Of a stretch of 64,000 nucleotides of DNA, positions 13,044 to 44,029 are shown piece after piece. Positions within the stretch are counted from its first letter, which is position 1; every line of letters begins with the position of its first letter. The position numbers were made by a program, and so were the translations under genes. The stretch is from Jiella pacifica (GTDB lineage Bacteria > Pseudomonadota > Alphaproteobacteria > Rhizobiales > Rhizobiaceae): the NCBI RefSeq assembly GCF_010500815.1, contig NZ_JAAAMG010000020.1, forward strand, positions 1 to 64,000, written 5' to 3'. Below the pieces are notes generated by a model that worked only from the letters and a program-made list of their open reading frames with translations, ran no database searches and was not told the DNA's origin.

Positions 13044-13139
13044 CAGACAAATTCCTTCTCCTGCGCCGAGCGGGGCGCAATCAAACTCCTGCTGTTCAGG
13101 GGATTGGTTCTCTACCCGGACGGCAGGAGACGGCGGCGA

Positions 13140-14330: not shown

Positions 14331-14361
14331 CGGCCCTATACTCTATTGCGTAGTGGCCGTG

Positions 14362-14808: not shown

Positions 14809-15520
14809 TGCTTCCAGCTCCTGTCATGAATTTGCGCTGCGCGGCGCGGTCACGAGCTGACGAAATCGCGTCGGTGCCGACCGTGTTTGCTATCGCGGCC
14901 TGAACGCGCAGGTTTTCGTTGAGGAGAACCGCGACTTCGGCCAGCATCCGCGTGTTGTAGTCGACCGAGGCTTTGAGATCGGCGTTGCTGTCGATGTCCT
15001 CGATCATGCCGTTCACCCGATCCATCGACGCATTGGCGCGCTGGTAGGTATCTTCGGCCGTTGCCACGGCCGCCATGCCGGACCCGGCCTGCGTCGCCAA
15101 CGCCCGGTCCTGCGTGCGTTCGGAGCCGAGAAATTGCGTCAGATCGGCGAGGCCGAACGTGTCTTTCAGTTCCGAGATCCGGTCGCTGATGACAGAGGTG
15201 TTGCCGGAGAGGCCGCCGCCCGAAATGGCACTGTCGATGATCGAGCTCAGGCTATCGGCCGCCTCTCGTGCGCTCTGATCGGTCGCCGAGTTGAGGATGC
15301 CGCCGATCCCCTTGTCGCCAGTCATGCTTTCGAGCTGATCCTGCAGGTTCGTCAGTTGCTCGAGCTGGTTCTCGTAATCCTTCTGCATCTGTTCGAGCTG
15401 CTTGATGAACTGCGCGATGGCCGCACCGTCGATAACGGGCACGCCCTCGGCATGGGCCGGGATGCTTCCCAGCGAGACGACGACGATCGAGGCCGCCAGG
15501 GTTCGGATCATCCGTTTCAT
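14798..15520 (-). CDS. virB5: VirB5 minor pilin / P-type conjugal transfer protein
   Basis: A 240-residue protein with a signal peptide (about 1-26, ending PAHA) and an alpha-helical coiled region (IKQLEQMQKDYENQLEQL, then LQDQLESMTGDKG) typical of VirB5/TrbJ. It would sit at the tip or base of the conjugative pilus. The ATG at 15520 overlaps the stop of the small lipoprotein gene. In the raw sequence the virB4 frame runs straight through into this gene without a stop; I treat that as the result of a frameshift in virB4 and keep virB5 as a separate gene because of its own signal peptide and start. Confidence 0.87.
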   Translation of the reverse strand: MKRMIRTLAASIVVVSLGSIPAHAEGVPVIDGAAIAQFIKQLEQMQKDYENQLEQLTNLQDQLESMTGDKGIGGILNSATDQSAREAADSLSSIIDSAISGGGLSGNTSVISDRISELKDTFGLADLTQFLGSERTQDRALATQAGSGMAAVATAEDTYQRANASMDRVNGMIEDIDSNADLKASVDYNTRMLAEVAVLLNENLRVQAAIANTVGTDAISSARDRAAQRKFMTGAGSSEE

Positions 15521-15657
15521 TGGACTACGACACTCCCTTGGTTGATCGGAGCCCATTCGCAGGTCTTCGCCTGGCAGGGCCACTTTTCGGCGGTGTAGCT
15601 TGCGCACCCGGCCGTCGAGGCGGCCAGCAAAAGGACGGGGAGGATCTTGATGTTCAT
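15517..15657 (-). CDS. Small lipoprotein, VirB7-like candidate
   Basis: A 46-residue reading frame with start ATG at 15657 and TGA overlapping the virB5 ATG. The sequence MNIKILPVLLLAASTAGC is a lipoprotein signal with the acceptor Cys at residue 18. The 28-residue mature peptide contains two more Cys (WPCQ, KTCEW). It is placed 2 bp after the restored virB4 stop. Size and lipobox match VirB7, which tethers VirB9 to the outer membrane, and no other virB7 is present in the operon. Canonical virB7 lies between virB6 and virB8, so the position is unusual. An exclusion lipoprotein is the alternative. Confidence 0.7.
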   Translation of the reverse strand: MNIKILPVLLLAASTAGCASYTAEKWPCQAKTCEWAPINQGSVVVQ

Positions 15658-15659
15658 GG

Positions 15660-23513: not shown

Positions 23514-24296
23514 ATGTCGCTGCAGCCGGGCGAGAAGATCGGGATCATTCTCGACACGGAAACGACAGGTCTCGATTATCGCCGTCACGAGATCATCGAG
23601 CTCGGCATGGTGATGTTCACCTATGGTGCCGAGGGCATTCGGGACGTGGTCGGCGTGTTCGACGAATTGCGGGAGCCGGGCGAGCCGATCGCTCCCGACA
23701 TCACTCGCATCACTGGCATCACGGACGACATGGTCGCAGGACAGTCGATCGATCCGGCAGCCGTTGCCGATTTCGTCGCTCCCGCCGATCTCGTTATCGC
23801 CCACAATGCCCGGTTTGACCGTCCGTTCTGCGAGACATTTGCATCTGGCTTCGATCTGAAAGCCTGGGCGTGTTCAAACCAGGAGGTGGACTGGCGCGCC
23901 TTCGGCTTCGAAGGGTCGAAGCTCGGCTACCTCGTCGGTCAGTGCGGACTCTTCCACAACGGCCATCGGGCTATTGACGACTGCCATGCCCTGCTCGAGG
24001 TGTTGGCGTTCCAACACGAAGCAAACGGATGTGCATTCCCTCACCTCGTCGCATCGGCCGCCAAACGACGCTGCCGGATCTGGGCGCAACACAGCCCGTT
24101 CGACCTGAAGGACGCGCTCAAAGCCCGCGGCTACCGCTGGAACGACGGCAGCGACGGGCGGCCGAAGAGCTGGTGGACCGAGATTGACGAAGAGGGCTTC
24201 GACAACGAGTGTCACTTCTTACGCGAAGAGATCTACCGTCAAGATATCGATCCGCACCTAGAATGGCTAACGGGGGTCGAGCGATACAGAGCCTGA
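23514..24296 (+). CDS. DnaQ-like 3'-5' exonuclease
   Basis: A 260-residue DEDDh exonuclease domain. Exo I is ILDTETTGLD (residues 11-20), Exo II is VIAHNARFDRPF (about 95-106), and Exo III has the histidine and aspartate in NGHRAIDDCHALLEVL (about 142-157). The C-terminal 70 residues are a separate extension with WSTEID-like and HLEWLTGVERY segments. It would remove nucleotides from 3' ends and may take part in repair or defence of the element. Reinitiation at this ATG could still give a catalytically complete protein despite the upstream TAG. Confidence 0.85.
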   Translation: MSLQPGEKIGIILDTETTGLDYRRHEIIELGMVMFTYGAEGIRDVVGVFDELREPGEPIAPDITRITGITDDMVAGQSIDPAAVADFVAPADLVIAHNARFDRPFCETFASGFDLKAWACSNQEVDWRAFGFEGSKLGYLVGQCGLFHNGHRAIDDCHALLEVLAFQHEANGCAFPHLVASAAKRRCRIWAQHSPFDLKDALKARGYRWNDGSDGRPKSWWTEIDEEGFDNECHFLREEIYRQDIDPHLEWLTGVERYRA

Positions 24297-24434: not shown

Positions 24435-24521
24435 TAAAGATTTGTTCCCAAATCCACGGGGGCAATTTCGCTGGGGTTCTTGAGGGCGGCCGGTTCGCCG
24501 CCTGATCAGGAGCCAAGCCCC

Positions 24522-25974
<1,453 letters not shown>

Positions 25975-25978
<4 letters not shown>

Positions 25979-27354
25979 CCACCGATCCCGACCACCTGCA
26001 CCGCACGGCGAAATACTTCATGGACAGCGGCCGCGCCGCGACCGCCGACGATGCGGTTGACATGCTCTCCCGCTTTGGCCTCGCGATCCGCGTGGACCCG
26101 GCGACCGTCACGACGGTGAACGGACAGGTCGGGCTGCTCACCCTAGTCAATGCGGCACGCCGCACGATGCTCGGCGGCATCGAGGTCGAGGGCGTCGGAG
26201 GTCAGGCGGTGGTCACCAAGCTGGCGACCGAGGCCACCCTGCGCGAGGCGGTCGAGGCGCTCGGAGGTACCTGCGTCGAGAAGGTCCGCGCCGCCTGGCC
26301 GCGCGCGATCATTGGCGACGTGGGCGCGCCGACAGGTTCGACGCCCGCGTGGCGCCTGCAGTGGGCTGGCTGGCGCGGCGGCGTGATCCCGTCGACCTGG
26401 CCCACCGCAATGATGGACGACGCCATATCGCTGGCGCCGGCCCTAGCCGCAGCCGCATGCGTCGGCGAGGTCTTCGCCTGGCACGCCGGCGACCACGACA
26501 TGGCGGGGCGGCGTGCTTCGGGGCTCTCAATCTGGGACCCGGGCAAGTCATGGATGGAGCCGAATTCGACCGAGCCGGCCCTGCGGCACCTTCCCACGCA
26601 TCTTTGGTTCATCGGCTTGGGAAACCTCGGTCAGGCGTTTGCCTGGGCGCTGGCGTCGCTGCCCTATCCTGAGGGTGCGGATGCCCTGCTGATGCTCCAG
26701 GACTTCGACAGCATGGCGGTGTCGAACGACAGCACATCGCTGCTCGCGGTGCCCGAGCAGCCGACCGTCATGAAGACGCGATGGGTCGGCGATTGGCTGC
26801 AGCGCCGGGGCTTCGACGTGCGGCACGAAGAGCGGCGTTTCGGTGCCTGGACCCGGCGCCACCATCTCGAGCCCGGCGCGGCGCTGTGCGGCGTGGACAA
26901 CGCGGCCGCCCGCGCTGCGCTGGAGGAAGCCGGGTTCGACCTGGTGGTCGAGGCCGGTCTGGGCGCGGGAACGCAGGGGTTCCGGAACTTCTCCCTCCAC
27001 AGCTTTCCCGGGCCCAAGCGCGCGAGCGTGATCTGGGGCGGCGCTGCGGCGTCGGCCACGGCTCCCGACGTCTCGAGGATGCCCGCCTACGAAGCGATGA
27101 AGATGGAGGGCGTCGACGGCTGCGGCCTCGCCCAGATCGCGTCACGCACGATCGGCGTGCCCTTCGTCGGGCTGACCGCCTCGGTCCTTGCGGTGGGCGA
27201 GCTGCTGCGGCGCTTGCACGGTGGCGGCGCTATGGAGCTGGTGTCGGGTTCGCTGATGGCGCTGGACGACACAGAGGCGTTCACCGGCGCCCCCGAACCC
27301 TACGCCCATGGACACCTCGACCTTGATCCCGTTGACATCCCCAAGGCGGCCTAA
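25975..27354 (+). CDS. bilD: E1-like ThiF-fold activating enzyme (BilD)
   Basis: A 459-residue protein. The N-terminal 200 residues form an accessory domain with no catalytic motif that I recognise. The C-terminal half is a ThiF/E1 adenylation domain: Rossmann motif FIGLGNLGQ (glycines from 214), LMLQDFDSMAVSN for the nucleotide, ALCGVDNAAAR, and a candidate catalytic cysteine C383 in DGCGLAQIA. It would adenylate the C-terminal glycine of the ubiquitin-like protein and hand it to the E2. It is the last gene of the operon and is followed by a GC-rich hairpin. Confidence 0.9.
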
Positions 27355-27641: not shown

Positions 27642-30600
27642 TCACACGCCGCAAATGAAATAGCACGGGCAATTCGGACAGTAGCGCGGATCGCTTGGCT
27701 TGGCGGGAAAATTCCCCGCCTCGATCCCGGCGATCGCATCCCCGAACGCCTTGACCGCCTTGTCCTCCTTACTAGCGGGGAAGTCGCGCGTCACGCCGTC
27801 CCCCGGGTAATAGGCCTCGACCGAGATCGCCCGACCCGGAAACCTGCGCCGCGCCGCCAGCAGCATCGCGCCGTAGATCGGATTGTCGCCTTCGCTCTTG
27901 GTCTGTCGCCCCGTCCTGATCCGTTGCACGCGGACCACGCCGCCGGTGTCGACCAGACGGTCGGGCTCGATCGTCAAGGTGCGACCGCCGACCGGCAGTT
28001 CGAGCGGCCCGTCCGGATAGGCTCCCTGCTCGGCTCCGACGTATGCGGCGTCGTTCAAGACCATGCGGTTTGCGGCCTGGCGGTAGTAGTTCTCGAAGCC
28101 GTGACCAACTGGGCCGCGCTCGGCCCATACCACATCTAGCTGCGCCAAAGCCTGCGGCGCGCTCGTCGCAACGCCCTCGCCACGTCGCTGCTCGATCCAC
28201 GCCAAGGTCCTCCGAACACACCGGTGGAAGTCGAGGAAGGCGGCCCCGTCGGTGCCCGCGCGCAGGCCCATCATTTGCTCGTAGCGGTACCTCGCCGGGC
28301 AGCGGATGTAGGTGTCGAGCTCGGTGGCCGAGTAGTTCGTCCGCTTCTCGACCGCGACCGGCGGCCTCGCCGGGGGCTGTGGCACGCTCGATGGCGCCAA
28401 ACGGGTCCGCGTCAGTATCGCTGAGACCGAGTCTAGGAACTTGGACGCGGAGGCGTTCTGGGACGTGTATTTCTGGGCTCGGGTCAGCGACAGGTGGTCG
28501 CGAGCGCGCGAGAGCCCCACGAAGAACAGGCATTCCTCCTCGGCATCATGGTCCTCCTTGCCCATGTTGAGCTGAGGGTACTTGCCGAGCGTGGGCATCC
28601 TCGAACCCTTGCGGCTGGCGGGCATGTATTTCGTCGCCAGGGCGGGGAGATGCACCGCGGGGAACTCAAGGCCCTTGCTGCCGTGGATCGTCAGCACCCG
28701 GACGGCGTCGATGTCGGTCGCCTCAGCCGAGATCGCGCGGTAGGCGCTGTCCTGGTTGAGCAGCTCGATGCGCCGAATACGCGCCAGCAGGCGGCGGCGG
28801 CTCCTGTCGCCCGCCGCATCATGCTCGCCGCACACTTTGAGTAGCTGATAGATCGCGATCAGCTTCTGCCGGTCGGCGGGGTCCGAGCTCCGTACGAGCG
28901 GGTCGAGGTAGCCGCCGGTCTCGAACAGCCACCCCGTCAGCATCGTCCAGGGCGTCGTCGTGGCGCCAACGAACGCTAGCTCGCCGCCGAGCCGGGCGAG
29001 GCCGAAGCGTCCGCCGTCCGACAGACCTTCAATCTCGGCGACGCTCGACAGCGCGGTTATCACCGGCCGCTTCTGCTCGCGGGCCCAACTTATCACCTTC
29101 AAAGTGTCCTGCTCCGTCGCGCCATACGCCGGCAACTGGCCCACCCGGACCAGACCAAGCCCGCCGAACTCGGCGTCGAGGGCGACCAACGACAGCAGGT
29201 CCCGGATCTCGCCGCGCTCGAACAGGTCGCCCAGATACAGAAGTGGCACGTTCAGCCGCTCGAGCAGGGACGTCAGGCGGCCAAGCGTAAGGTGGCTGCG
29301 AGCGAGTATGGCCTGATCGCGATACGGGACGCCGGCGGCTCTCAGCCCCTCGATCCGGTCGCGTATCGCGCAGGCCTCGTCCTCCAACGTCCCACACACC
29401 TCCAGCGTGACCTCGCCGACGGCGCCGCGGTTGGCCTGCCACTGCGATTGCCGGCCGCCGGTCATTCCGCCGGTGAAGGCAGCGAAGGCTCTGACGACTG
29501 GCGTTCCAGACCGGTAGTTGATCCCGAGGGTGTGGCGCTTTCCGCCGAACTCGGAAGGAAACCGCTCGACGTTGGATGGCTCCGCACCTCGGAACCGATA
29601 GATCGACTGGCGATGGTCGGCCACGACCCAAATGTCGCGGCATTCGCTGGCGAACGCGCGCAGCAGCATCGAGCTCGCGTAATTCACGTCCTGATACTCG
29701 TCGACGAGCAGGTGCCGGTAGGACCCAATGACGTCGGCCCGCACCTCATCGTCCGCCAACAGCGCGACGGCATGGCCGATGAGGTCGCCGAAGTCGACAG
29801 CGTCCGCCTCGGTGAGCAGCCTCTCGTAGATGACATAGACCTTGCCGACCTCGACCGCCTTCTCGGCTGCCTCCCGGCCCGCATCGTCGACCGCCGCAGC
29901 CAGATCCGCGTCGGCCGCGGCCAGATATTCGACCGGACCGATAAGTTCGTCCTTCGCCCGCGAGATCGCGCTCACCACGAAAGCAAGTTCAAGGGCCGGC
30001 TCGAACAGGTTCTGGTAGTGCCGGAGTGGAAGCTGCTCGAGGTTGGCCTCCAGCAGCGCCAGGCTTGCAGTCGGGTCGAGAATCTTGACCTTATCGGTCC
30101 GGCCGATGCGCCCAGCGAAGCGGGTGACCAGCTCCAGGCCGAAGGCGTGGAACGTCCCGACCCACATCTCGATGGCCGCATCGGCGTCGACCGCCGACAA
30201 GCGCTCGCGCATCTCCTCCGCGGCCTTGTTGGAGAAGGTGAGCGCGAGGATCGACGACGCCGCGTCCCCCTTGAGGATGCGCGTGATGCGTTCAACCAAA
30301 GTGCGCGTCTTGCCCGTGCCCGGACCGGCGTGGACTAGCAGTGGCCCGTCGTCCCAATCGACGGCGGCCTGCTGATCATCGTCCAGACCATAGACGACCT
30401 TCTCGCGCTCCTCGACATCGTGACGGATGAGAGGCGGCAGCAGAAGAGCCCTGATCGCCTGCTGGAGCACGAGGTTGCGCGGCAACCCAACTTCGGTCGC
30501 GATCCCGGAAGGCCTGGCACCGGCCAGAAGCCTGTCTCTCAGCCAGTCGGAGGGACAAAGGAACTCGCCCGCGAAGACGTCCGCCTGCACCTCCTTGCGC

Positions 30601-30974
30601 TCGCGCGAGGAGTATCCGTCGACGCGCGCCCCGCCGCTCTCCACCGGTTCGCCGGAGAGCCGCATCGACACGTCGGTCACGTCGCTCTCGGGATCGGTGT
30701 GGAGTCGGAAGTGTCCGAACTCGTGGGCGATGACGACCACCTCGTCCTCCTCGGCCTGGCCGCGCGCGACGTGGACGATGCCGGGACCGCGCTCGAAGAA
30801 CCCGAGTACATCCTCGCCCGCGCGCGTGCCTGGATCGAACTTGACGATCTGCAGGTCGTGCAGCTCGATCATGGCGTCGATCAGGTTGCGCGCGGTCGGC
30901 GCGGCGTTCGTCTTCGCCAACGCGGCGGCGCGGCAGTCTCGCGCGGCGAGCCGGATGTCGCTCCAGGCGTCCAT
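27642..30974 (-). CDS. ImmA/IrrE protease - UvrD helicase - PD-(D/E)XK nuclease fusion
   Basis: A 1110-residue multidomain protein. Residues about 1-190 are an ImmA/IrrE-type zinc metallopeptidase (HEFGH at 84-88, third ligand likely in KEVQADVFAGEFL, 127-139). Residues about 197-800 are a superfamily 1A UvrD/Rep helicase: Q motif LDDDQQAAV, Walker A GPGTGKT (217-223), LLVDEYQDVN, VVADHRQSIYRFRGA and VLTIHGSKGLEFPAV. The C-terminal part (from about 855, SATELDTYIRCPARYRYE) is a RecB/Cas4/AddB-like nuclease, ending CPNCPCYFIC with CxxCx5C spacing (C1099, C1102, C1108) suggesting an iron-sulfur cluster. It is the last gene of the operon and follows an HTH gene with a one-base overlap. Confidence 0.9.
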   Translation of the reverse strand: MDAWSDIRLAARDCRAAALAKTNAAPTARNLIDAMIELHDLQIVKFDPGTRAGEDVLGFFERGPGIVHVARGQAEEDEVVVIAHEFGHFRLHTDPESDVTDVSMRLSGEPVESGGARVDGYSSRERKEVQADVFAGEFLCPSDWLRDRLLAGARPSGIATEVGLPRNLVLQQAIRALLLPPLIRHDVEEREKVVYGLDDDQQAAVDWDDGPLLVHAGPGTGKTRTLVERITRILKGDAASSILALTFSNKAAEEMRERLSAVDADAAIEMWVGTFHAFGLELVTRFAGRIGRTDKVKILDPTASLALLEANLEQLPLRHYQNLFEPALELAFVVSAISRAKDELIGPVEYLAAADADLAAAVDDAGREAAEKAVEVGKVYVIYERLLTEADAVDFGDLIGHAVALLADDEVRADVIGSYRHLLVDEYQDVNYASSMLLRAFASECRDIWVVADHRQSIYRFRGAEPSNVERFPSEFGGKRHTLGINYRSGTPVVRAFAAFTGGMTGGRQSQWQANRGAVGEVTLEVCGTLEDEACAIRDRIEGLRAAGVPYRDQAILARSHLTLGRLTSLLERLNVPLLYLGDLFERGEIRDLLSLVALDAEFGGLGLVRVGQLPAYGATEQDTLKVISWAREQKRPVITALSSVAEIEGLSDGGRFGLARLGGELAFVGATTTPWTMLTGWLFETGGYLDPLVRSSDPADRQKLIAIYQLLKVCGEHDAAGDRSRRRLLARIRRIELLNQDSAYRAISAEATDIDAVRVLTIHGSKGLEFPAVHLPALATKYMPASRKGSRMPTLGKYPQLNMGKEDHDAEEECLFFVGLSRARDHLSLTRAQKYTSQNASASKFLDSVSAILTRTRLAPSSVPQPPARPPVAVEKRTNYSATELDTYIRCPARYRYEQMMGLRAGTDGAAFLDFHRCVRRTLAWIEQRRGEGVATSAPQALAQLDVVWAERGPVGHGFENYYRQAANRMVLNDAAYVGAEQGAYPDGPLELPVGGRTLTIEPDRLVDTGGVVRVQRIRTGRQTKSEGDNPIYGAMLLAARRRFPGRAISVEAYYPGDGVTRDFPASKEDKAVKAFGDAIAGIEAGNFPAKPSDPRYCPNCPCYFICGV

Positions 30975-31588
30975 CAGAGATCAGCCAGCCAGTAGTCGAT
31001 CTCCTCCTGGCTCATGCCGGACGACCTTACGATCTCCTCGAAGGTGCGCTGGTTCGCGACCGGCTGGCCGACGGCCTTAGCGCGCCCCCCGAGCGAGGGA
31101 GCCATTGCGACGCGCGCATGCGCCACGTTGAACGCCTCGAGGGATACGCCGAGCTCGCGCGATATCGCGATGGAGAAGCGAGGCCGCGTATCGGACATTC
31201 GCCCGGCGAACAGATCCGCCACAACCACGCGCTCTATAGGCAACCTCCGCGCCAGCTGCGGCTGGGACAGTCCGGACCGCTTGAGCATCTCGTTGAGCGT
31301 CGGCACCGGAGCGGCAACCGCCTCCGCGGCGCGATCGTCCGCCTCCGCCGCGAACATGGCGGCCTGCACGCGGCTCCCGGCCCGGGCAATCATGTCGTTA
31401 TCCAGCTCGGCGGCCGCCTCAATGGTGTCGGCCAGCATGGCCAGACGGACGGCTGCATGCTCGCGGATGTCATGCGCTAACTTCGGATGAAGATCCGCCC
31501 AGCGCTCCACGTCGGCGCGGGTTGGAATGTCGCATCCCTCGTGGAATGCGATCAGCACTTCATCCCTTTCCTGCTGATTGTCTTCCAT
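30974..31588 (-). CDS. Helix-turn-helix (Cro/C1-like) regulatory protein
   Basis: A 204-residue protein whose central part is an XRE-type HTH (about 97-130: TLNEMLKRSGLSQPQLARRL). The N-terminal 95 residues are helical and acidic, and a second short SQEE motif (MSQEEIDYWLADL) ends the protein. The start at ATG 31588 overlaps the TGA of the sigma-factor gene. The next gene encodes an ImmA/IrrE-type protease, and proteins of that family often inactivate an XRE repressor encoded beside them, so this protein is the natural candidate substrate and repressor of the operon. That is inference. Confidence 0.82.
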   Translation of the reverse strand: MEDNQQERDEVLIAFHEGCDIPTRADVERWADLHPKLAHDIREHAAVRLAMLADTIEAAAELDNDMIARAGSRVQAAMFAAEADDRAAEAVAAPVPTLNEMLKRSGLSQPQLARRLPIERVVVADLFAGRMSDTRPRFSIAISRELGVSLEAFNVAHARVAMAPSLGGRAKAVGQPVANQRTFEEIVRSSGMSQEEIDYWLADL

Positions 31589-32268
31589 CACGAATTTCCG
31601 ATCTTCTTGGCTAGTTGCTTCTGGACGGCCGCGACCCTGGAAGCGGCGGTGTCTGGGCTGATTCCGAGGATGCTGGCGATCGAGGGACCGTTCTTGCTGC
31701 TGCAGGGGAACCCCTGCATGTGGAGCACGAAGGCCGCGCGCTTGTCCTTGTCCCGGATGCTGTCCAGGATGCGCTGCACGTAGACCTCCTGCTCCGCATA
31801 AGAGAACAGCTCGGTCTTCGGATCCACCATGCCGCCGGGGTCGTCGACCATGTCCGGACTGCGCTTCATCGCGATGATAGCTTTGCGCGCGTGGTCGATC
31901 GAACGCTTGCGGAGCGTGGACTTGAACCACTTCCGCAGACCCTCGCCATCGGCGGCGGTCGGCGACAGTAGCGCATCCACCATAGCGGCGTGCACGTCCT
32001 CGACGATGTCGCGGCCCTGGTTGGGGAACGCCGTCGAAGAGATCTCGCCGCGGATCACCTCCAGCATGCGACGGGAGATGAAGCGGATCATCTCGCGCAC
32101 GAAGTGCTGGTCGACGCCCGCGCGGCGGTAATTAGCCCTGATCGCCCCGACGATCACCCCTTCCGGGAAGCCGGACAGCTGGCCATGCTCGACGACCAGG
32201 CGCCAGCTTTGGTGGTCACCCGGCAGCGGAGGCTCATCGTCCGCGTCACCCATCAGTATCTCCTCCAT
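31588..32268 (-). CDS. ECF-like sigma-70 family factor
   Basis: A 226-residue protein. Region 2-like helices (about residues 55-140, including FKSTLRKRSIDHARKAI) are followed by a linker and a region 4 helix-turn-helix at the C-terminus (GPSIASILGISPDTAASRVA, about 190-210). No region 1 or 3 is visible, so it resembles ECF or phage-type sigma factors. Its start is 66 bp from the end of the ATPase gene and its stop overlaps the HTH gene. A dedicated sigma factor inside a defence-like operon suggests autonomous or stress-triggered transcription. Confidence 0.75.
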   Translation of the reverse strand: MEEILMGDADDEPPLPGDHQSWRLVVEHGQLSGFPEGVIVGAIRANYRRAGVDQHFVREMIRFISRRMLEVIRGEISSTAFPNQGRDIVEDVHAAMVDALLSPTAADGEGLRKWFKSTLRKRSIDHARKAIIAMKRSPDMVDDPGGMVDPKTELFSYAEQEVYVQRILDSIRDKDKRAAFVLHMQGFPCSSKNGPSIASILGISPDTAASRVAAVQKQLAKKIGNS

Positions 32269-32334
32269 ATCTGGATCTCGGAGACAAGGGCGAAGGCTGA
32301 CGCGGAAAATTGGGAAAAAAGTTCACCCGTCCGA

Positions 32335-35300
32335 TCACGACAGCGTGCATTCGGAATGGAGCTCGGCGCCGACCACAGATTTTGCGATCACGACGAGGTG
32401 CGGGTGATGGGTGAAGAACAGCACCTGGGTGCTCCGGGCCACCTCGACCAAGACCCGAAAGCCCGCCTCCGCCCGGCGGTCGTCGAAGTTCACAAATAGG
32501 TCGTCGGCGAGGAACGGCAGGGCGACCCCGGCCGCGACCGACTGCTCGAGCGCGGCGAGGCGCAGCGCGAGGAACAACTGGTCGGTGGTGCCCTCGCTCA
32601 TCGCGTCGACGTCGACCATCGTCCGCATGTCGTCGCGCACGCCCCGGAGCCGGGGGCTGGAGCCGTCGGTGTCCACCTTGAGCGTCGCGTAGCGTCCCGT
32701 GGTCAGGGTAGAGAAAAGTTCGCCCGCGCGCAGCAGCAACGGGTCCTGATGCCGCTCGCGATACCTCTCGATAGCCCACTTTAGCGTAACCGCCTGCGTC
32801 CGCTTCAGGATGTAGTCCTCGGCGAGGACCTCCAGCTCCGAACGGGCCTGCTCGGCATCGGCCGCTGCGTCGACGGCGGCGGTGCCGCCTGTGTCGAGCG
32901 CCGCGAAGGTGGCACGGGCGTCGCCGTGCGCAGTTGCCGCCGCGTCCACCGCCGCGTTTAAGTCATCGAGACGGGCTCCCAGCGTCGCCAGCTGCGACGC
33001 GACCTGATCTGGGTCTGTCGCCTGAACCGCGGCGACCAGTGCGTCGAGTCCGAGACCGTCGCCGGCCTCGGTGATCGCACCCTCGGTCGCGGCCACCCCA
33101 TCGAACAACGCGCGCCTGGCTCTTGAGCGTTCGATCGCCGCGGAGAGCGCAGTCCTATCCGCCGCGCCGGTTTCCGCCAGGAATGGCGCGAGGGCCTCGT
33201 CGGTCGCCGTCAGCTTGGCCTGCGCCTCCTGCAGCTCGCCCTGGCGGCGACGGTCCTCCTCGTCCAGCGAACCGTGAAGCGTCTCCGCGATCCGCGCCGC
33301 TGCGAGCCGGTCCCGCATCGAGCGGAGACGCTCGGGCACCCCGCCCGCGGCGATGCCGAGCGTGTCGGCGAGCCGTCCCACCGCCGCCGCGTGATCCCGG
33401 GTGTCGCGCGCGATGCCATCAATGCGGCGACGAAGGAGCGCTTCGGACGAAGACGCCTCGCGAAGCTCGTCGAGAAGATCGAGCACGGCTCCGCAGGCGG
33501 TCACGTCGACGTCCAGACGCGCCTCGGCCAATGCCGCGGCCCACCCTGCGGCAGTCGTCGCCGCCGCGCCTTCCGCCGCGCGGGCCCTTCGGTCGAGCGC
33601 AGTGGTCTCGGCGCCGACTTGATCCAGCTCCGCCTGCGCCAGCAGGCGCTTGCGCGAGACTTCCTCGGACGCGGCGCGGCGCGCCTCCGCCCTGACGAGC
33701 ACGGGCCCGAGCGGACCGGCGGCATCCGTAGTCCCGAGCGCGGCGGCGAGCGCCGATCGCGCCGCATCACGCTTGGCTTCAGACCGCTCGGCCTCCGAGA
33801 CCAAGCCGCGCAGCTCGGTCTGCGCCGCCTCGCACGCGTCGCGGTCCGCCTGCCAGGAGTTGAACCTGCCAGGCTCCAGTTCAGGCAAGCCGACATCGCC
33901 CAGCCGGCGCCGCCAGGTGGCAAGGACCTGGTCGTGACGGTCGCGCGCCGACCGCGCGCGGGCCGTAGCCTGCTCGCCCCCGAGGTCGTGCGACGCCCGC
34001 GTTCGCTCCAGTAGGGACAACCGGCTCGATGCGTCGGCGGCCGCGTAGCGTGCGTCCGCCCGCCCGTCCGCCGCCGCGACGCCAGTCTCGAAAGCCGCGA
34101 CCGCGTCTGCCGGAGACGCGAGGGACGCGCCATCCACGAGGTGGTCGCGGAGCGGCCGCCACAGACGGTCACGCTCGGCTCGCACCTCCAGGATGTTTTC
34201 GGCCGACACGGCAGTCCCGGTCGCCAGCTGCGAGATCTCGAGCGCCGCTGCCGAAGACTGGTCCGACGCGCGCTGGGCGGCCTCCTCCTCGCGGCGGATG
34301 TCCGCGACCAAGGCCGCCAGGGCTTCGCGCGCCTCCTGGATCTCGGTGGCGTCCACCCTGGGCAGGCGGGCGAGCAAATCTGCATCACCCGTCCACGGCG
34401 CGAGCCGGGCAAGCGCGTCGGCGGCCCCGCGCCTGGCGACGTCCAACTTGCCGCGCGCGGCGTCGCAGCGGGAGTCGGCGTCGGCGCCCAGCGCCCGCGC
34501 CTCGTCGACGGCTGACTGCAACGCTTCGTCGGCGTCGCCGATTATGTTGGCGGCAAGGGCCGCCTCTGCACGACCCCGCCGCTCATCGATGCGTTGCCGC
34601 TCTTCCTGGAGCTGGCGCGCCGCCAGGCGCTGCTCGCCGTCGATACGGGAGAGCTCCCGCAAGCGCGCCGCGAGTTCACGCGGCGGCGCCGCATCGGCGT
34701 TCGGGCCAGCCTCGGCGCGGAGTCGGCGGACCGCCGCCGCCGCCTCGGCGTGCTCCGCCTCGAGGCCGACCAGGTCGCGCTTCGCCTTGATCTCGGCGCC
34801 CGCCTCAGCGACAAGGCGATCGACCTCTTCCGCCTCCCCGAGCACTTGCGCGTCGGTCGATACGGCGGCACGCCGGTCGGCGACGTCCGCGCGCAGGCTC
34901 TCGGCCGCTACCATCGCGCGCACCGCCTCATCCGCCTCACGGATCAGCTCCTCGGCGGCGGTCTCGCGCTGACGCCCGAAGTCTACGACCCCGTCGTAGT
35001 CGGCGAGCGCCGCCTTCTGCTCCTCGCGGCGCCGAGCGAGCGGTGCGATACGCCTGACGCGTTCGGCGGACCTGGACTCAGTTTGGACCGCGTCACGGTC
35101 GCGGCGCGCCGCTTCCAGTGCCTCGCGCGTCCGCTCCGTGGCGATCCTGGCGTCCGACCAGGCCTTTGGCTTCAACGCGTCATCGCGCACGATCCTCGCG
35201 GCCTCCGCAAGCTGGCGCTGGGCCTGCGTGAACGTGCGGCTACCACGGGTGGTCGGGCCCCAGATCGCGTCGGCCTCCGCCTCCAGGCGGCGTAGCTCGT

Positions 35301-35775
35301 CGGATACCCCGGTCAGGCCAGACCCCGCAGCGAATAGCGTGCGACCGACATCGTTCTTCGCCTCGACTACGGCTTGTCCGCCCAGACGGAGCGCGGCCTG
35401 ATCCAGACTGAAGGAGAGGCCAAACGTGTCGCGGGTCTGGCCGCGCAACATCGCGGCGAGCGGCCCCTCATCGATAGCGGCGTCGTCGGCACCAAGCAAG
35501 GTGACGCCCGTCCCCTTCTTCCGGCGGCAGGCAAGCGTCATGCCGCCGTCCTCCAGCACCGCGCCGACGCGGAGCAGCGAGTAGTCGAACAGAAAGTTGT
35601 ATGGCGATCGCTGGGGAAAGCCGAAGAGTAGGTCCGAAACCGCGGCCAGCGACGTCGTCTTGCCGGCCTCGTTCTCGCCGTAGATGACGTGGAGGTCGGG
35701 ACTGCCGATACGGAAGTCCAGCTCGCAGTCCTCGAAACGCCCGTAACGTTCGAGCGAGAGGCGGGAAAACCGCAT
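32335..35775 (-). CDS. YhaN/SbcC-like SMC-family ATPase
   Basis: A 1146-residue protein with ABC/SMC ATPase halves at the ends. Walker A is GENEAGKTT (33-41), preceded by LSLERYGRFEDCELDF as in YhaN. About 850 residues of Ala-, Arg- and Glu-rich coiled coil follow. The C-terminal half-site has the signature and Walker B segment in PFLADDLFVNFDDRRAE and VLFFTHHPHLV. Proteins of this type use ATP to open the DNA entrance for a partner nuclease of the SbcD/Mre11 family, here encoded immediately upstream with a 2-bp gap. Codon use is extremely C- and G-rich, like the rest of this island. Confidence 0.9.
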   Translation of the reverse strand: MRFSRLSLERYGRFEDCELDFRIGSPDLHVIYGENEAGKTTSLAAVSDLLFGFPQRSPYNFLFDYSLLRVGAVLEDGGMTLACRRKKGTGVTLLGADDAAIDEGPLAAMLRGQTRDTFGLSFSLDQAALRLGGQAVVEAKNDVGRTLFAAGSGLTGVSDELRRLEAEADAIWGPTTRGSRTFTQAQRQLAEAARIVRDDALKPKAWSDARIATERTREALEAARRDRDAVQTESRSAERVRRIAPLARRREEQKAALADYDGVVDFGRQRETAAEELIREADEAVRAMVAAESLRADVADRRAAVSTDAQVLGEAEEVDRLVAEAGAEIKAKRDLVGLEAEHAEAAAAVRRLRAEAGPNADAAPPRELAARLRELSRIDGEQRLAARQLQEERQRIDERRGRAEAALAANIIGDADEALQSAVDEARALGADADSRCDAARGKLDVARRGAADALARLAPWTGDADLLARLPRVDATEIQEAREALAALVADIRREEEAAQRASDQSSAAALEISQLATGTAVSAENILEVRAERDRLWRPLRDHLVDGASLASPADAVAAFETGVAAADGRADARYAAADASSRLSLLERTRASHDLGGEQATARARSARDRHDQVLATWRRRLGDVGLPELEPGRFNSWQADRDACEAAQTELRGLVSEAERSEAKRDAARSALAAALGTTDAAGPLGPVLVRAEARRAASEEVSRKRLLAQAELDQVGAETTALDRRARAAEGAAATTAAGWAAALAEARLDVDVTACGAVLDLLDELREASSSEALLRRRIDGIARDTRDHAAAVGRLADTLGIAAGGVPERLRSMRDRLAAARIAETLHGSLDEEDRRRQGELQEAQAKLTATDEALAPFLAETGAADRTALSAAIERSRARRALFDGVAATEGAITEAGDGLGLDALVAAVQATDPDQVASQLATLGARLDDLNAAVDAAATAHGDARATFAALDTGGTAAVDAAADAEQARSELEVLAEDYILKRTQAVTLKWAIERYRERHQDPLLLRAGELFSTLTTGRYATLKVDTDGSSPRLRGVRDDMRTMVDVDAMSEGTTDQLFLALRLAALEQSVAAGVALPFLADDLFVNFDDRRAEAGFRVLVEVARSTQVLFFTHHPHLVVIAKSVVGAELHSECTLS

Positions 35776-35777
35776 GC

Positions 35778-37028
35778 TCAGCCCTCCCTCGTGAGGCGCG
35801 ACCGTAGCGCGGTCGACGCGGCGGCAAGGACGCCCGCCCAGTCACCCCGCGTAGCCCCCAGCCGCAGTTCGCCATCATTGCGCTCGCCGAGCGAAGTGCT
35901 CGCCGCCAGCATGAAGCGCTCGAGGTCGCGACCGATCGCGGCCACGAGGTCGGGATTGGTCGCCGCCCCGTCGATCATGGCGCCAAGGTCATCGCCGACC
36001 GCGACCGTCGTCCGCGCCGGTTCGGTCACATCGACCCGGACCTTCTCGACGAACAGGTCCGGGGAGATAGAGGTGGCGATCGCGCGCACGTCGTCGCGCA
36101 GCGTCGCGGCACGGTCGCGAAACGCGCCGGCCTCCGCCGTCTCCCCTACGAGCGTCACGCGCACGATCAGCGGCCGACCCGAGGCGTTCGTGCCGTGGAG
36201 GCCGACGAGCGCGGACCGCAGCACGTCCTCCGCGTCGTCCATGCCCGCCCCGGCGCAGTTCACGTCGAGACGGGCCCAGCGGATCACGTCAAGCTCGACC
36301 CGCTCCACCAACGCGACCTCGCCGTCGGCCACATCGACCAGGACCGCACCCTTGGCACCGGTCTCTCTGATGGTTCGGCCCTGCACGCTGCCGGGGAAGA
36401 CGACGTAGGGCTCGTCGCTGACGACCTCGAACTCGTGAACATGACCGAGCGCCCAGTAGTTGTAGCCGCGCGACCGCAGGTCCTCGACGCTACAGGGCGC
36501 GTAGTCCGCATGGCCCTGCCGCCCGGCCAGGGCCGTGTGGAGCATGCCGATGTTGAAGACGTGCGGCTCGGCCGGCGGATAGGCGAGGACAAGGTTCTCG
36601 GTGACGGCCGGCGTCGAGAAGCTCTGGCCATGGACCGCGACGGAGAGGTGAGCGAGGCGGTGCGTCTCGGGCCGCCTCGAACCAAACAGATAGACGTTGG
36701 GCGGCCAGGGGACGGTGCGCGAGACCACCGAGGCCGCGTCGTGGTTGCCGGCCAGCAGGAATGCCGGGATGCCCGCCTGGTCGAGCCGCCCCATCGCCTT
36801 CGCGAAGTAGAGGCCGGTGCCCATGTCGCGCCAGTCGCCGTCGAAGAGGTCGCCCGCGATCACGACGAAGTCGACCGCCTCGTCGATCGCGAACTGCACG
36901 AGGTTATCGAAGGCTGCGCGCGTCGCCGAGCGGATCTCGTCGACGGGCAAGCCCTCGTATCTCGACAGGCCGTGCAGCGGGCTGTCGAGGTGGATGTCGG
37001 CTGCGTGCAGGAACCTGAAGCTCGTCAA
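35778..37028 (-). CDS. YhaO/SbcD-like calcineurin-fold DNA phosphoesterase
   Basis: A metallophosphoesterase of about 416 residues with the full Mre11/SbcD motif set: HAADIHLDSPL, VIAGDLFDGDWRD, LAGNHDAAS, IGMLHTAL and GHVHEFE, then a C-terminal capping region. I favour the TTG at 37028 (after ggggggatgag) because LTSFRFLHAADIH then starts as in the family; the open frame extends to 37106. With the SMC-type ATPase encoded 2 bp downstream it would form a YhaON/SbcCD-like exo/endonuclease acting on DNA ends or hairpins. It is the first gene of the five-gene operon. Confidence 0.87.
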   Translation of the reverse strand: MTSFRFLHAADIHLDSPLHGLSRYEGLPVDEIRSATRAAFDNLVQFAIDEAVDFVVIAGDLFDGDWRDMGTGLYFAKAMGRLDQAGIPAFLLAGNHDAASVVSRTVPWPPNVYLFGSRRPETHRLAHLSVAVHGQSFSTPAVTENLVLAYPPAEPHVFNIGMLHTALAGRQGHADYAPCSVEDLRSRGYNYWALGHVHEFEVVSDEPYVVFPGSVQGRTIRETGAKGAVLVDVADGEVALVERVELDVIRWARLDVNCAGAGMDDAEDVLRSALVGLHGTNASGRPLIVRVTLVGETAEAGAFRDRAATLRDDVRAIATSISPDLFVEKVRVDVTEPARTTVAVGDDLGAMIDGAATNPDLVAAIGRDLERFMLAASTSLGERNDGELRLGATRGDWAGVLAAASTALRSRLTREG

Positions 37029-37533: not shown

Positions 37534-37839
37534 ATGATGCTTGATCGGCATGTTGTACCTGTCGCGAGAAACGGGCGCATGAATCTTCCTTCAGCTCTTC
37601 GTGCGAAACTCGACTTGGAAAGCGGCGGCAAGGTCGTCTTTGTCGAAAAAGACGACGGAGAGGTGGAGGTGACAACCCTGCGTCGCTCCCTAAAGCGCGC
37701 ACAGGATCTGGTGAGGCAATACATACCTGCGGACGTCAATCTTGTGGACGAGGTGATCGCCGATCGTCGCGCGGAAGCCCAACATGAACTGGAAGATGAG
37801 GCCTCTTGCAACGATCAGAGCGACCAGATCCAAAAATGA
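37534..37839 (+). CDS. AbrB/MazE-type antitoxin (VapB-like), second copy of the type
   Basis: A 101-residue protein (start at one of two adjacent ATGs, 37534 or 37537) with an AbrB-type N-terminus (NGRMNLPSALRAKLDLESGG, KVVFVEKDDGEVEVTTL) and a helical tail (VDEVIADRRAEAQHEL). The layout matches the antitoxin at 22527 but the sequence has diverged. A ribosome-binding site aaaagga precedes it. Its stop overlaps the toxin ATG. Confidence 0.83.
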   Translation: MMLDRHVVPVARNGRMNLPSALRAKLDLESGGKVVFVEKDDGEVEVTTLRRSLKRAQDLVRQYIPADVNLVDEVIADRRAEAQHELEDEASCNDQSDQIQK

Positions 37840-38231
37840 GCGGCTCTGTTCTGGACACCTCGGCAATCATGGCATTCTTGCGCAGCGAAATTGTAGGCGA
37901 AGAAGTCGGCCGAATGCTTGAAAATCGGGCGATCGTGTCGACCGTCAACGTGCAGGAGCTTCTGGCGAAACTGATCTCCAAAGGGATGAGCGTGGGCGAT
38001 GCGCGTCTGACGGTTCGATCCTTGAACCTTGAAGGGCATGATCTCTCTTGGACGCTGGCGGAAAGCGCCGCTGAGATGATCGAGCATACCCAGGCTCACG
38101 GGTTGAGTTTGGGCGATCGAAGCTGCCTCGCTCTCGCCCGGGCTTTGAACATGCCAGCGGTCACGGCCGATCGCGCCTGGGCGAACGTAGCGGATGATCT
38201 GGGTGTAGACGTCGTCTTGATACGAGGATGA
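37836..38231 (+). CDS. vapC: PIN-domain toxin (VapC), second copy of the type
   Basis: A 131-residue PIN ribonuclease. Key acidic residues lie in SVLDTSAIMAFL (D7), VNVQELLAKL (E, about 43), LSLGDRSCLALARA (D, about 95) and AVTADRAWANVA (D, about 114). It is colinear with the toxin at 22811-23203 over the whole length. I start it at ATG 37836, which overlaps the antitoxin stop. Confidence 0.9.
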   Translation: MSGSVLDTSAIMAFLRSEIVGEEVGRMLENRAIVSTVNVQELLAKLISKGMSVGDARLTVRSLNLEGHDLSWTLAESAAEMIEHTQAHGLSLGDRSCLALARALNMPAVTADRAWANVADDLGVDVVLIRG

Positions 38232-41227: not shown

Positions 41228-41858
41228 CGGCTTGCTCCCGCGCTTCGCCGAGAGCGTCCCAGCCCTGCCAGACGATCACCGGGAGCATGAGCAGCGCCCC
41301 GGCTGAGTCCGCCCACCACCAGCCGAAGGCGGCGTTAAGCCCGACGCCGAGGAGCAGCGAGAATGACATCCAGGAGCACACCCAGGTCTCGGCGGCGTCG
41401 GCCTGGAGCGCCTTACTGTTCATTTCGCGCCCGGTGCGCTGCTTCGTCCAGGCGAGAGCCGGCATGACGAGGAGGGAGAGCACCGACAGCACGAGGCCGA
41501 CCATTGACGTGTCGGGTGCCTCGCGAGCCAGCAGCGCCGGGATGCTCTCGAAGAGGATGTAGGCGGCCAGCGCGAAGAACGTGCCCGCCACCACATAGAG
41601 CGCGCGGCGTTCGGCCTTGCCGCGCTCGCCGATTTCCGCCTCGGGACCGGCGCTGTAGAGCCGCCAGAGCAAGCCGATCGCGGAGGCAACCTCGATGACG
41701 CTGTCCATGCCGAAGGCGATCAGGGCCGTGCTGCCGGAAATAATCCCGGCCCCGATCGCGACCAACGCCTCGACGACGTTCCAGGCGACGGTGAGCCACT
41801 CGAGGCGCAGCGCACGCCGGTGTAGCGCCTTGCCATCCATCGTGTTCACGGCCGCCAT
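41217..41858 (-). CDS. Cation diffusion facilitator-like transporter
   Basis: A 213-residue membrane protein with a CDF-type six-helix core: VVEALVAIGAGIISGSTALI, GMDSVIEVASAIGLL as the metal-binding helix, and a second site in ALQADAAETWVCSWMSF. It lacks the usual C-terminal dimerisation domain. It is translationally coupled to the P-type ATPase upstream (shared ATGA) and so is under the same MerR-type control. Likely substrates are Zn, Cd or Co. Confidence 0.85.
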   Translation of the reverse strand: MAAVNTMDGKALHRRALRLEWLTVAWNVVEALVAIGAGIISGSTALIAFGMDSVIEVASAIGLLWRLYSAGPEAEIGERGKAERRALYVVAGTFFALAAYILFESIPALLAREAPDTSMVGLVLSVLSLLVMPALAWTKQRTGREMNSKALQADAAETWVCSWMSFSLLLGVGLNAAFGWWWADSAGALLMLPVIVWQGWDALGEAREQADES

Positions 41859-44029
41859 CAGCGCGCTTCCGGCGGCTCAGCCGGACGATCGGCATGGAAG
41901 CGCAGGAGGCGCAGCGCGTTGATCGTGACGAGCACGGTGGCGCCGGTGTCGGCCAGGATCGCCATCCAGAGCGTCGTCGTGCCGGTCAGGGTCGTTATCA
42001 GGAAGATGGCCTTCAGCCCGAGCGCGAGTGCGATGTTCTGCCAGATGTTGCCGAGCGTCGCGCGCGACAGCTCGACCAGCTCGGCCACGCCCGTGACGCG
42101 GTTCTTGAGCAAAGCGGCATCCGCCGTTTCCAGCGCAACGTCGGTGCCGCCGCCCATGGCAATGCCGACCGAGGCAGCGGCCAGCGCCGGCGCATCGTTG
42201 ATGCCATCGCCCACCATTGCGATGCCGCCCTGCGCCTTCAGCACGCCGATCTCGGCGAGCTTGGCATCCGGCAGCAGTTCGGCTTTTGCCTCCAGGCCAA
42301 GGCTATCAGCGATCGCGGCGGCGGTGCGCCGATTGTCGCCGGTCAGCATGACGGTGCGGACGCCAAGCGCATTGAGGCGGGCCACGCCTGCGGCCGCGTC
42401 CTCGCGGGGCTCGTCGCGCAGGGCGACGACGCCAAGGATTCGCTTGCCGCCGAGAACCACCACAGCCGTCTTGCCCTCGGCCTCCAAAGAAACAAGCCGG
42501 GCACGGATCGCCTCGGGCACCTCGCCCTGCTCGGCGGCATAGCGCGGCGAGCCGACCGAGACGAAGCCTTCGCGCAGGCGCGCCGTCACGGTCTTACCGG
42601 GGATCGCCATCGCCCCGCCGAACACCTTCGGCAGTTCGAGGCCGCGCGCCTCGGCCGCCTCTACGATGGCGGCGCCAAGCGGGTGGCTGGACCCGCGCTC
42701 GACGGCCGCGGCCTTGGCCAGGATTTCGGCCTCGTCGCCCTCCACGGCGATCACGTCCGTGATCCGCGGACGTCCAATCGTCAGAGTGCCCGTCTTGTCG
42801 AATGCGACGGTGCGCACCTTGCCCAGGGTCTCCAGCGCCGCGCCGCCCTTGATCAGGAGCCCGCGCCGGGCCCCGGCGGCAAGGCCGGAGGCGATCGCCG
42901 CCGGGGTGGAGATTACAAGAGCGCAGGGGCAGGCGATGAGCAGCGTCGCCAGCCCGCGATAGACCCAGGTCGACCACTCCGCTCCGAATAGGAGCGGCGG
43001 CACGACCATGATCAGGGCCGCTACCAGCATGGCCGCAGGCGTGTAAACGGCGCTGAACCGGTCGATGAAGCGGGCCGTTGGCGCCTTCGAGCCTTGCGCC
43101 TCCTCGACGAGGTGAATGATGCGGGCGATCGTGTTGTCGGCGGCCGTGCGGGTGATGCGCACGCGCAGCACGCCATTGGCGTTGATGCTGCCGGCATAAA
43201 CGGTGCTACCCGCCTCCTTCAGCACCGGGACGGACTCACCCGTGACCGGCGCCTCGTCCATCTCGGACATGCCATCGATCACCTCGCCGTCCGAGGGCAC
43301 GCGATCACCGGGCCGCACCACGACGATATCGCCGATGCCGAGCCGTTCGACCGGAACCTCCGAGACGGCGCCACCCTGCTCAAGGCGCGCGACGCGCGGC
43401 ACGAGGTTCATCAGCGCCTCGATTCCGGCGCGTGCCCGGCCAGCGGCGACGTTCTCAAGCAGCTCGCCCACGGCGAAGAGGAAGACAACAACCGCCGCCT
43501 CCGCGCCCTCGCCGATCGCGATGGCGCCGATCGCGGCGACGGTCATCAGGGTTTCGATGCTGAAGGGCGTGCCGTGGCGTGCTCCGGCGACAGCACGCCG
43601 GGCAATCGGGACCAGGCCGAGCAGCGCCGCGGCCACATAGGCCCATTCCGCTAGATCGGGCGCGACCGCCGCGACGATGAAGGCCAGGATGAGGACAGCG
43701 CCGGTGCCAAGAACAAGCTGCCCTTTGCGCGTCCGCCACCAAGCTCCATCGGCGACCGTCGATGGAGCTTCAAAAGCGGGACGGTCGGCCGACGTCTGAG
43801 CGTCGAGTGAATGCGGAGCGTAGCCGAGGGAACGGATGCGCTCCTCGATTGCCTTGCGCGAGGTGCGGTCCTCATCGAAGACGAGGGAAAGCCGTTCCAG
43901 CCCGACATTGACATTGATGTCGCTGACGCCGGGCAGGCGCTTCAGTCCGTTTTCGACCTTCAGAGCGCAGGCTCCGCAATCCATGCCTTCGACACGGAAC
44001 TTGAGTTGGGTGGCGGCCTCGGCTGCCAT
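41858..44029 (-). CDS. Zn/Cd/Pb-translocating P1B-type ATPase (ZntA/CadA-like)
   Basis: A 723-residue heavy-metal exporter. The N-terminal HMA domain has GMDCGAC (15-21). The transport motif ACPCALVIS is near residue 366, the phosphorylation site DKTGTLT near 410, the HP motif SSHPLG near 450 and GDGINDAPA near 606. The CPC with downstream K and D residues of the P1B-2 class fits Zn2+, Cd2+ or Pb2+ export. It is divergent from a MerR regulator with a perfect operator between them. Confidence 0.95.
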   Translation of the reverse strand: MAAEAATQLKFRVEGMDCGACALKVENGLKRLPGVSDINVNVGLERLSLVFDEDRTSRKAIEERIRSLGYAPHSLDAQTSADRPAFEAPSTVADGAWWRTRKGQLVLGTGAVLILAFIVAAVAPDLAEWAYVAAALLGLVPIARRAVAGARHGTPFSIETLMTVAAIGAIAIGEGAEAAVVVFLFAVGELLENVAAGRARAGIEALMNLVPRVARLEQGGAVSEVPVERLGIGDIVVVRPGDRVPSDGEVIDGMSEMDEAPVTGESVPVLKEAGSTVYAGSINANGVLRVRITRTAADNTIARIIHLVEEAQGSKAPTARFIDRFSAVYTPAAMLVAALIMVVPPLLFGAEWSTWVYRGLATLLIACPCALVISTPAAIASGLAAGARRGLLIKGGAALETLGKVRTVAFDKTGTLTIGRPRITDVIAVEGDEAEILAKAAAVERGSSHPLGAAIVEAAEARGLELPKVFGGAMAIPGKTVTARLREGFVSVGSPRYAAEQGEVPEAIRARLVSLEAEGKTAVVVLGGKRILGVVALRDEPREDAAAGVARLNALGVRTVMLTGDNRRTAAAIADSLGLEAKAELLPDAKLAEIGVLKAQGGIAMVGDGINDAPALAAASVGIAMGGGTDVALETADAALLKNRVTGVAELVELSRATLGNIWQNIALALGLKAIFLITTLTGTTTLWMAILADTGATVLVTINALRLLRFHADRPAEPPEAR

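Follow-up and report, generated by a model that had tools for sequence, protein, structure and literature searches.

A three-gene sigma factor, helix-turn-helix and protease-helicase unit as a candidate DNA-triggered controller of bacterial ubiquitin-like immune operons

CapP is activated by single-stranded DNA (ssDNA) and cuts CapH, and CapW or CapH+CapP is reported at 219 of 544 ubiquitin-like Bub operons, with capKS adjoining Bub operons, cyclic-oligonucleotide-based antiphage signaling systems (CBASS) and five Bil operons (available text of PMC13373217). The metallopeptidase PprI (IrrE) is likewise reported to be switched on by ssDNA and to cut the helix-turn-helix (HTH) repressor DdrO (PMC10904395), and CalpL is reported to cut the anti-sigma factor CalpT, thereby freeing CalpS (PMC12751052). 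Here we analyze a 64,000-nucleotide stretch of Jiella pacifica (contig NZ_JAAAMG010000020.1, positions 1 to 64,000; hereafter the window), in which three minus-strand genes lie tail to tail with a BilABCD operon: an extracytoplasmic function (ECF)-like sigma factor (31588..32268, 226 residues), an XRE-type HTH protein whose N-terminal region has four helices (30974..31588, 204 residues; the presumed protease substrate) and a fusion of an ImmA/M78 protease, a UvrD helicase and a PD-(D/E)XK-like domain (27642..30974, 1110 residues; assigned with Pfam and an alignment of 78 fusions). The conserved unit is these three genes and, with a probability of about 0.6, it controls the adjacent ubiquitin-like immune operon, here BilABCD, by a DNA-triggered protease and release of the sigma factor. 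Gene content, linkage, active-site states and a shared promoter-like motif were established computationally.

We read the unit as a possible sigma-using relative of CapH+CapP, with which it shares an M78 protease with an intact zinc site, an XRE-type HTH neighbor and an immune operon alongside. However, the protease here is not a stand-alone protein but the N-terminal part of a fusion of about 1100 residues, followed by a UvrD helicase and a nuclease-like domain read as inactive, and a sigma factor is added to what is otherwise a two-gene system. CapK+CapS and CapW/BrxR are also described as immune-operon controllers responding to ssDNA or damage, but they are kinase-STAS or WYL proteins and lack a protease, a helicase and a sigma factor. 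CalpL-CalpT-CalpS of type III CRISPR loci likewise combines a protease, a substrate and a sigma factor in immunity (PMC12751052), and a dedicated sigma factor is present here as well (ECF profile E 5.9e-8; gene in 72 of the 80 loci surveyed below), although the protease there is a Lon-SAVED protein triggered by cyclic tetraadenylate (cA4), as opposed to an M78 domain with a helicase. With PprI-DdrO (PMC10904395) the unit would share an ssDNA-activated metallopeptidase that cuts an HTH repressor, but PprI-DdrO has neither a helicase fusion nor a sigma factor and regulates DNA-damage genes.

Linkage to immune operons recurs far beyond the window. In an order-level sample of 397 genomes, a search with the sigma factor hit five, one of them being the window's own, and the order sigma factor, HTH protein, fusion is kept in all four others; a Bil operon directly follows the fusion gene at three of these loci (L010, L012 and L011, which reaches a contig edge after bilD), and a multiubiquitin operon takes its place at L013. 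The layout is convergent in the window, and L010 has its genes on a single strand. For the main survey, an alignment of the ImmA domain (A4, 12 rows) was run against one genome per species (84,980 species), yielding 446 pattern matches and 338 confirmed relatives, and the counts below come from the best 80 of the 338, annotated with profiles built from the window and its relatives. These counts carry biases: all 12 A4 seeds, from which the peptide patterns derive, have a ubiquitin-like operon; two seeds (L026, L027) were picked through BilD hits; and the best 80 are those nearest to the window, so that other partners may be under-sampled. There is also redundancy, since one genome contributes two copies (L028 and L029), L032, L036 and L060 are the same loci as L010, L011 and L013, and several other loci are close kin.

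The sigma gene is present at 72 of the 80 loci and an HTH-family gene at 74. The sigma gene is accompanied by BilABCD at 52 loci (the calls at L030, L065 and L088 being partial, with the operon cut by contig edges) and by other, multiubiquitin-type operons at 12 in all: multiubiquitin with Prok-E2_E and JAB-E1 at seven (L072 by weak matches only), multiubiquitin-like protein with JAB and Prok-E2_C/E1 at two, and multiubiquitin-E1-DUF6527 at three. At one further locus (L083, 8609-16322) the controller stands directly before CBASS genes with a SMODS cyclase and a patatin, and therefore the unit is not confined to ubiquitin-like operons. Seven loci have the sigma gene and no recognized operon; at six of them the contig stops no more than 141 bp beyond the fusion frame on its downstream side, which leaves L031 as the sole readable sigma-bearing locus without an immune operon. 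Thus, an immune operon adjoins 65 of the 66 sigma-bearing loci that can be read downstream, and a ubiquitin-like operon adjoins 64 of them. At L064 Bil is present and the sigma side lies off the contig. Neither sigma gene nor operon is found at seven loci, namely L050 (broken), L069 (short contig) and L091, L092, L100, L103 and L104, which form one branch in a tree of 78 fusions. The gene upstream of the fusion in L091, L092 and L104 is longer and weakly HTH-like, and Tn7-like genes were seen, by eye only, near L104. The fusion frame is broken in L010/L032, L030, L050 and L056, by assembly error or decay.

A class-level sample agrees: 5 of 385 genomes (own included) match A4 in a frame longer than 1000 residues, and all five have an adjacent ubiquitin-like operon (three Bil, one multiubiquitin-E1-DUF6527, one multiubiquitin-E2E), although two of these genomes, G800 and G768, overlap the main survey as L041 and L042. 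The converse does not apply: BilD scores 100 bits or higher in seven class-sample genomes, of which three carry the unit (own included); two of the seven (G445, G504) have ordinary ImmA genes near Bil, and no ImmA or sigma relative was recognized near BilD in G681 and G754 within the stretch fetched. Ordinary ImmA genes lie divergent from Bil in L116/L175 (of G445) and from multiubiquitin operons in L123 and L128. The linkage to ubiquitin-like or CBASS operons spans several phyla, and the grouping of the window's genes exceeds chance because the same genes co-occur in many distant genomes. On the fusion tree, a quick one with long-branch warnings for L026, L072, L092 and L169, partner type changes at least eight times (shuffled mean 21.6) and the starred branches force at least four changes for Bil; the unit has apparently passed from one operon type to another. 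The neighboring Bil or other ubiquitin-like operon is the likely effector.

The active sites of the fusion point to a DNA-dependent protease. Its Pfam domains are UvrD-helicase (E 2.9e-59), PDDEXK_1 (E 5.7e-13) and Peptidase_M78 (E 1.7e-9), and among solved structures its protease domain is closest to CapP (7t5t, E 1.3e-4). Across 78 distinct aligned fusions, the zinc ligands H84, E85, H88 and E128 (HExxH+E), the helicase residues K222/T223 (Walker A), D425/E426 (DE box) and R823, and four cysteines (892, 1099, 1102, 1108) are all invariant. In contrast, the PD-(D/E)XK acid position 1018 holds D or E in 0 of 77 sequences (one gap; R in 58, F in 9, I in 3, T in 3 and four single others), with D or E one residue earlier, at 1017, in 4 of 78; the lysine position 1020 holds R in 66 of 78 and K in 9. 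We set this register by the LDLKTG of 9iac, which aligns only weakly (E 0.2); it is most doubtful in the five fusions that lack a sigma gene. Because the catalytic acid is absent while the zinc and ATPase residues are invariant, the fusion looks like a DNA-dependent protease and not a DNA degrader; an actively DNA-degrading fusion was rejected on the missing acid. The nuclease-like domain is probably a remnant that serves a structural or DNA-binding role, and its cysteine cluster is presumably of the iron-sulfur type. The helicase core matches PcrA (1pjr, E 3.5e-115) and PADLOC GajB (E 8.8e-66) and so resembles the SF1 helicase of Gabija, but here none of the neighboring genes scanned is a GajA partner, the nuclease-like domain is inactive and a protease is added. 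Gabija itself was rejected as a candidate: in a scan of ten window proteins, GajA models match nothing beyond the P-loop region of one of them, the YhaN-like ATPase (E>=0.012), which is an AAA_27 protein. SF1 helicase motifs are likewise kept as in AddAB/RecB-type helicase-nucleases, from which the fusion differs in apparently lacking an active PD-(D/E)XK site.

The sigma assignment is weak for the window protein alone and firm for its family. The single protein has no Pfam match and reaches NCBIfam sigma70-ECF only below the cut-off (E 1.4e-5, 24.8 bits against 42.9), whereas a profile of the whole family hits structures of ECF sigma factors (E 5.9e-8) and Sigma70_r4_2 is found in 36 of 66 family members (E<=0.01). 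In a Foldseek search with its AlphaFold2 model (mean predicted local distance difference test score, pLDDT, 88.8; predicted template modeling score, pTM, 0.60), ranks 1-27 are sigma factors or their complexes by title, none of them at E<=0.001. The HTH protein is weakly recognized by sequence (HTH_3, 20.1 bits, below the Pfam cut-off of 23), and its nature is supported by fold: the model (mean pLDDT 90.0, pTM 0.57) suggests that a helical N-terminal region precedes an HTH of the Cro/C1 type, and Foldseek returns Cro/C1-type folds, none at E<=0.001, with DdrO among the weak matches at ranks 12 and 16 (E 0.23 and 0.26). In the window, as in most of the annotated plasmids viewed, the sigma gene overlaps the HTH gene, and two plasmids have a small gap instead; an overlapping gene pair is the usual layout of a sigma factor and its anti-sigma factor.

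A promoter-like motif connects the sigma gene to the immune operon. It is bipartite, TTCC(G/C) being followed, after a T-rich stretch, by TCGC at a distance of about 18 nt (19 nt for the window), and it precedes both the sigma gene and Bil. In the window, the two putative promoters have the same two blocks at the same spacing: TTCCCA-N16-TTCGCC at 32289..32316 on the minus strand, 20 nt before the sigma-gene ATG, and TTCCCA-N16-TTCGCT at 24445..24472 on the plus strand, 49 nt before the bilA ATG. As a regular expression, the motif occurs upstream of bilA in 22 of 57 loci, compared with 3 of 57 on the reverse strand, and upstream of the sigma gene in 25 of 79, compared with 9 of 79. The best ungapped 28-nt match between the sigma-gene and the bilA or multiubiquitin upstream regions of the same locus averages 19.3 (n=70), compared with 16.4 with the reverse complement (p 1.9e-10) and 16.8 with other loci (p 2.5e-11), by Wilcoxon tests whose disregard of kinship between loci counts against the comparison. 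The second blocks differ between groups yet agree within a locus (e.g., GCGACTT in L027, L088, L101 and L105). A matrix of 27 sites from 18 other loci, with the window and its nearest kin left out, ranks the window's sigma-gene site first among 383,832 placements (window positions, strands and spacings; score 17.9, next best 12.05). A preliminary description of this locus had placed a protease, an HTH protein and a sigma factor together in an immune setting, and both the kinship with CapP and this motif, shared by sigma and Bil genes in many loci, bear that out.

Several observations weigh against control of the operon by a released sigma factor. The regular expression also matches before the HTH gene (10 of 83; 3 on the reverse strand), the fusion gene (13 of 88; 13), bilB (8 of 56; 2) and bilD (6 of 56; 0), and before multiubiquitin genes it is found in 0 of 6 and 4 of 9. 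For the window's own pair, the 28-nt score is the same as that of the control (16 vs 16), and most multiubiquitin-type loci lack a shared motif: L023, L090, L098, L102 and L168 score 15-16, L025 scores 21 against a control of 20, L013, L053, L055, L057, L058, L061, L062 and L169 score 15-18 against 15-17, and only L059 stands out (20 vs 16). The 27 matrix sites were hand-picked among the regular-expression matches, off-looking ones being dropped, and the matrix ranks the bilA site only 10th of the placements (8.89). A short window pattern, written after viewing both sites, finds 2 sites with at most one mismatch where 0.51 are expected, and 10 of 100 shuffles reach 2 or more. Few HTH family members match a Pfam HTH model (HTH_3, 6 of 64), and no anti-sigma factor is among the matches listed for this family in sequence and structure searches. 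Finally, inverted repeats upstream of the sigma gene (72 vs 36.8 expected, 79 loci) and bilA (35 vs 19.2 expected, 57 loci) are about twice as frequent as in mononucleotide shuffles, and in the window one of them, GATTTG-TTCC-CAAATC (24439-24454), overlaps the putative -35 block of bilA; a repressor-operator view also fits.

That view amounts to plain CapH+CapP logic, in which the HTH protein would be a DNA-binding repressor, the fusion a CapP with a helicase as its DNA sensor, and the sigma factor a merely co-transcribed activator independent of the HTH protein. Besides the repeats, it draws on the M78 domain being nearest to CapP, on the Cro/C1-type fold with DdrO among its weak matches and on the frequency of CapH+CapP or CapW beside Bub operons. 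However, the shared motif is non-palindromic and nearly fixed in spacing, as for a sigma factor, and the overlapping sigma and HTH genes have a sigma/anti-sigma layout. We consider this alternative unlikely, although it survives better than the others weighed below.

For the DNA-triggered release of the sigma factor, we infer that DNA is the trigger, that the HTH protein is cleaved, that the sigma factor is released and uses the promoters, and that an Mre11-YhaN pair has a role; set beside the precedents of CapH/CapP, PprI/DdrO and Calp, such a protease switch is the simplest reading. In the resting state, the HTH protein would keep Bil silent, acting either as an anti-sigma factor that binds the sigma factor or as a block on its promoters. 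Upon phage infection, plasmid entry or damage, the fusion would load on free ends or ssDNA, and its helicase, with the nuclease-like cysteine-cluster domain as the DNA-binding part, would activate the ImmA/M78 protease, which would then cut the HTH protein. Once freed, the sigma factor could use matching promoters to express both the Bil operon and its own genes, the latter as positive feedback, and Mre11-YhaN, where present, may process DNA ends or add a second effector.

The Bil operon named in the preliminary description is real, all four plus-strand genes being matched by PADLOC: bilA, a ubiquitin-like protein (24522..25007, E 5.1e-50); bilB, its start placed by homology (25009..25494, E 1.1e-64; DUF7665); bilC, a JAB peptidase (25448..25978, E 2.6e-66; Prok-JAB); and bilD, an E1-like enzyme (25975..27354, E 1e-154). 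A DEDDh exonuclease gene lies just upstream of bilA (23514-24296; PADLOC DEDDh, E 2.4e-28). Upstream of the sigma gene, also on the minus strand, are an Mre11/SbcD-like phosphoesterase (35778..37028; Metallophos, E 2.8e-12) and a YhaN-like SMC-type ATPase (32335..35775, 1146 residues; AAA_27, E 2.1e-71). We find the five reading frames from the Mre11-like gene to the fusion where they had been reported, and their spacings of +2, +66, -1 and -1 are correct, both -1 junctions being TGATG. The pair recalls YhaON/SbcCD, and its active sites are judged intact from alignment: the motifs DxH, GD, GNHD, H and HxH are present in the window's phosphoesterase and 12 of 13 other aligned members (L038 is truncated), and the ATPase has a P-loop in 15 of 15 aligned sequences and a DD box in all 13 that reach that far.

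Mre11-YhaN is an optional accessory and not core. It is present at 13 of the 80 loci, its place varies, the pair preceding the sigma gene in the window, following Bil in L010 and standing divergent in L012, and its presence changes at least six times among Bil-linked tree rows, so that the pair seems to have been gained or lost repeatedly. Upstream of the Mre11 gene, compared in 14 loci, the shared motif is clear in L040 (20-21 vs 16-18) and L077 (19-21 vs 15-17) and seen by eye only in L085 (18 vs 17); the window's best match there (19 vs 16) is something other than the motif. An obligate five-gene system was rejected on the 13 of 80 count, and the window's five genes are probably not one five-gene machine. 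The preliminary description had proposed a self-regulated anti-phage or anti-plasmid machine; in the form weighed here it is self-contained, all five proteins act on DNA and Bil is a mere island neighbor. Intact SbcD-like and YhaN-like sites, intact helicase motifs and the conjugative setting described below speak for it, but the scarcity of Mre11-YhaN, the missing catalytic acid of the nuclease-like domain and the ubiquitin-like operon at 64 of 66 readable loci make it very improbable. Two near-identical nine-gene loci (L014, L015) lie on two contigs of one same-genus assembly (G008), with proteins 99.4-100% identical to those of the window. In L022 (Roseovarius), a WYL gene and a WGR gene (7143-8310) stand between the SbcCD pair and the sigma-HTH-fusion-Bil genes. 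The Sphingobium sp. V4 plasmid NZ_CP081002 carries 1.2 kb of the Mre11-YhaN region (window 35740-36983) at 82% identity.

The window's locus is probably cargo of a conjugative element, judging from relaxase, TraG/VirD4-type coupling protein and VirB/Trb secretion genes at 4410-18022. The fusion matches 79 plasmid records at E<=1e-100 (24 of the 79 typed conjugative and 40 mobilizable), and the sigma factor finds no plasmid match at E 1e-5. At least 49 of the 60 plasmid records listed have BilD or a multiubiquitin E1 next door, 28 of these 49 being related Acinetobacter plasmids, and two further plasmids carry a multiubiquitin operon beside the fusion in their gene tables. A Leptolyngbya plasmid has three unnamed genes of fitting size beside the fusion, and a further listed plasmid (H16) is a near-copy of it. 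On a Pseudomonas koreensis plasmid, whose gene table is incomplete, there is an IS66 element and no ubiquitin-like operon is annotated within 5 kb. The window also holds two heavy-metal P-type ATPases (41858-44029 and 60183-62426) and, at 37534-38231, two small plus-strand reading frames resembling an antitoxin and a PIN-domain toxin by eye. Least probable of all is that the unit controls a mobile element or a general stress response through a sigma regulon extending past the ubiquitin-like operon: the relaxase and type IV secretion genes, the conjugative or mobilizable plasmids and the authors' remark that Bub operons are not shown to protect against phage (available text of PMC13373217) would suit it, but a wide regulon was rejected by motif, with only five strict matches genome-wide, two of them at this locus, vs two for a control pattern, and the linkage to ubiquitin-like or CBASS operons holds across several phyla.

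Among the titles and opening lines of abstracts listed from the open literature, we found no sigma-HTH-ImmA-helicase controller of ubiquitin-like operons; the founding Bil, Bub and CapH/CapP papers are represented here as quoted in PMC13373217. The main text of the latter lacks the word helicase, and in its available passages UvrD stands only in a strain list; in the available text of PMC1779556 (Iyer 2006), helicase, nuclease, helix-turn-helix and sigma are absent as word starts. The chances are about even that the unit is a separate class of controller, in which a helicase-coupled protease reads DNA, possibly through translocation or ends, and frees a dedicated sigma factor, being interchangeable among unrelated ubiquitin-like operons and CBASS, with an optional Mre11-YhaN pair that makes the DNA signal. 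If so, it would be, to our knowledge, the first sigma-factor-driven switch for bacterial ubiquitin-like immunity. How Bil and related ubiquitin-like operons are switched on is only starting to be worked out, and a near-constant partner comprising a DNA sensor, a protease, an HTH protein and a sigma factor, together with a predicted promoter, makes the activation of Bil a testable question. The unit also offers a sequence handle for finding more ubiquitin-like or other immune operons under the same control.

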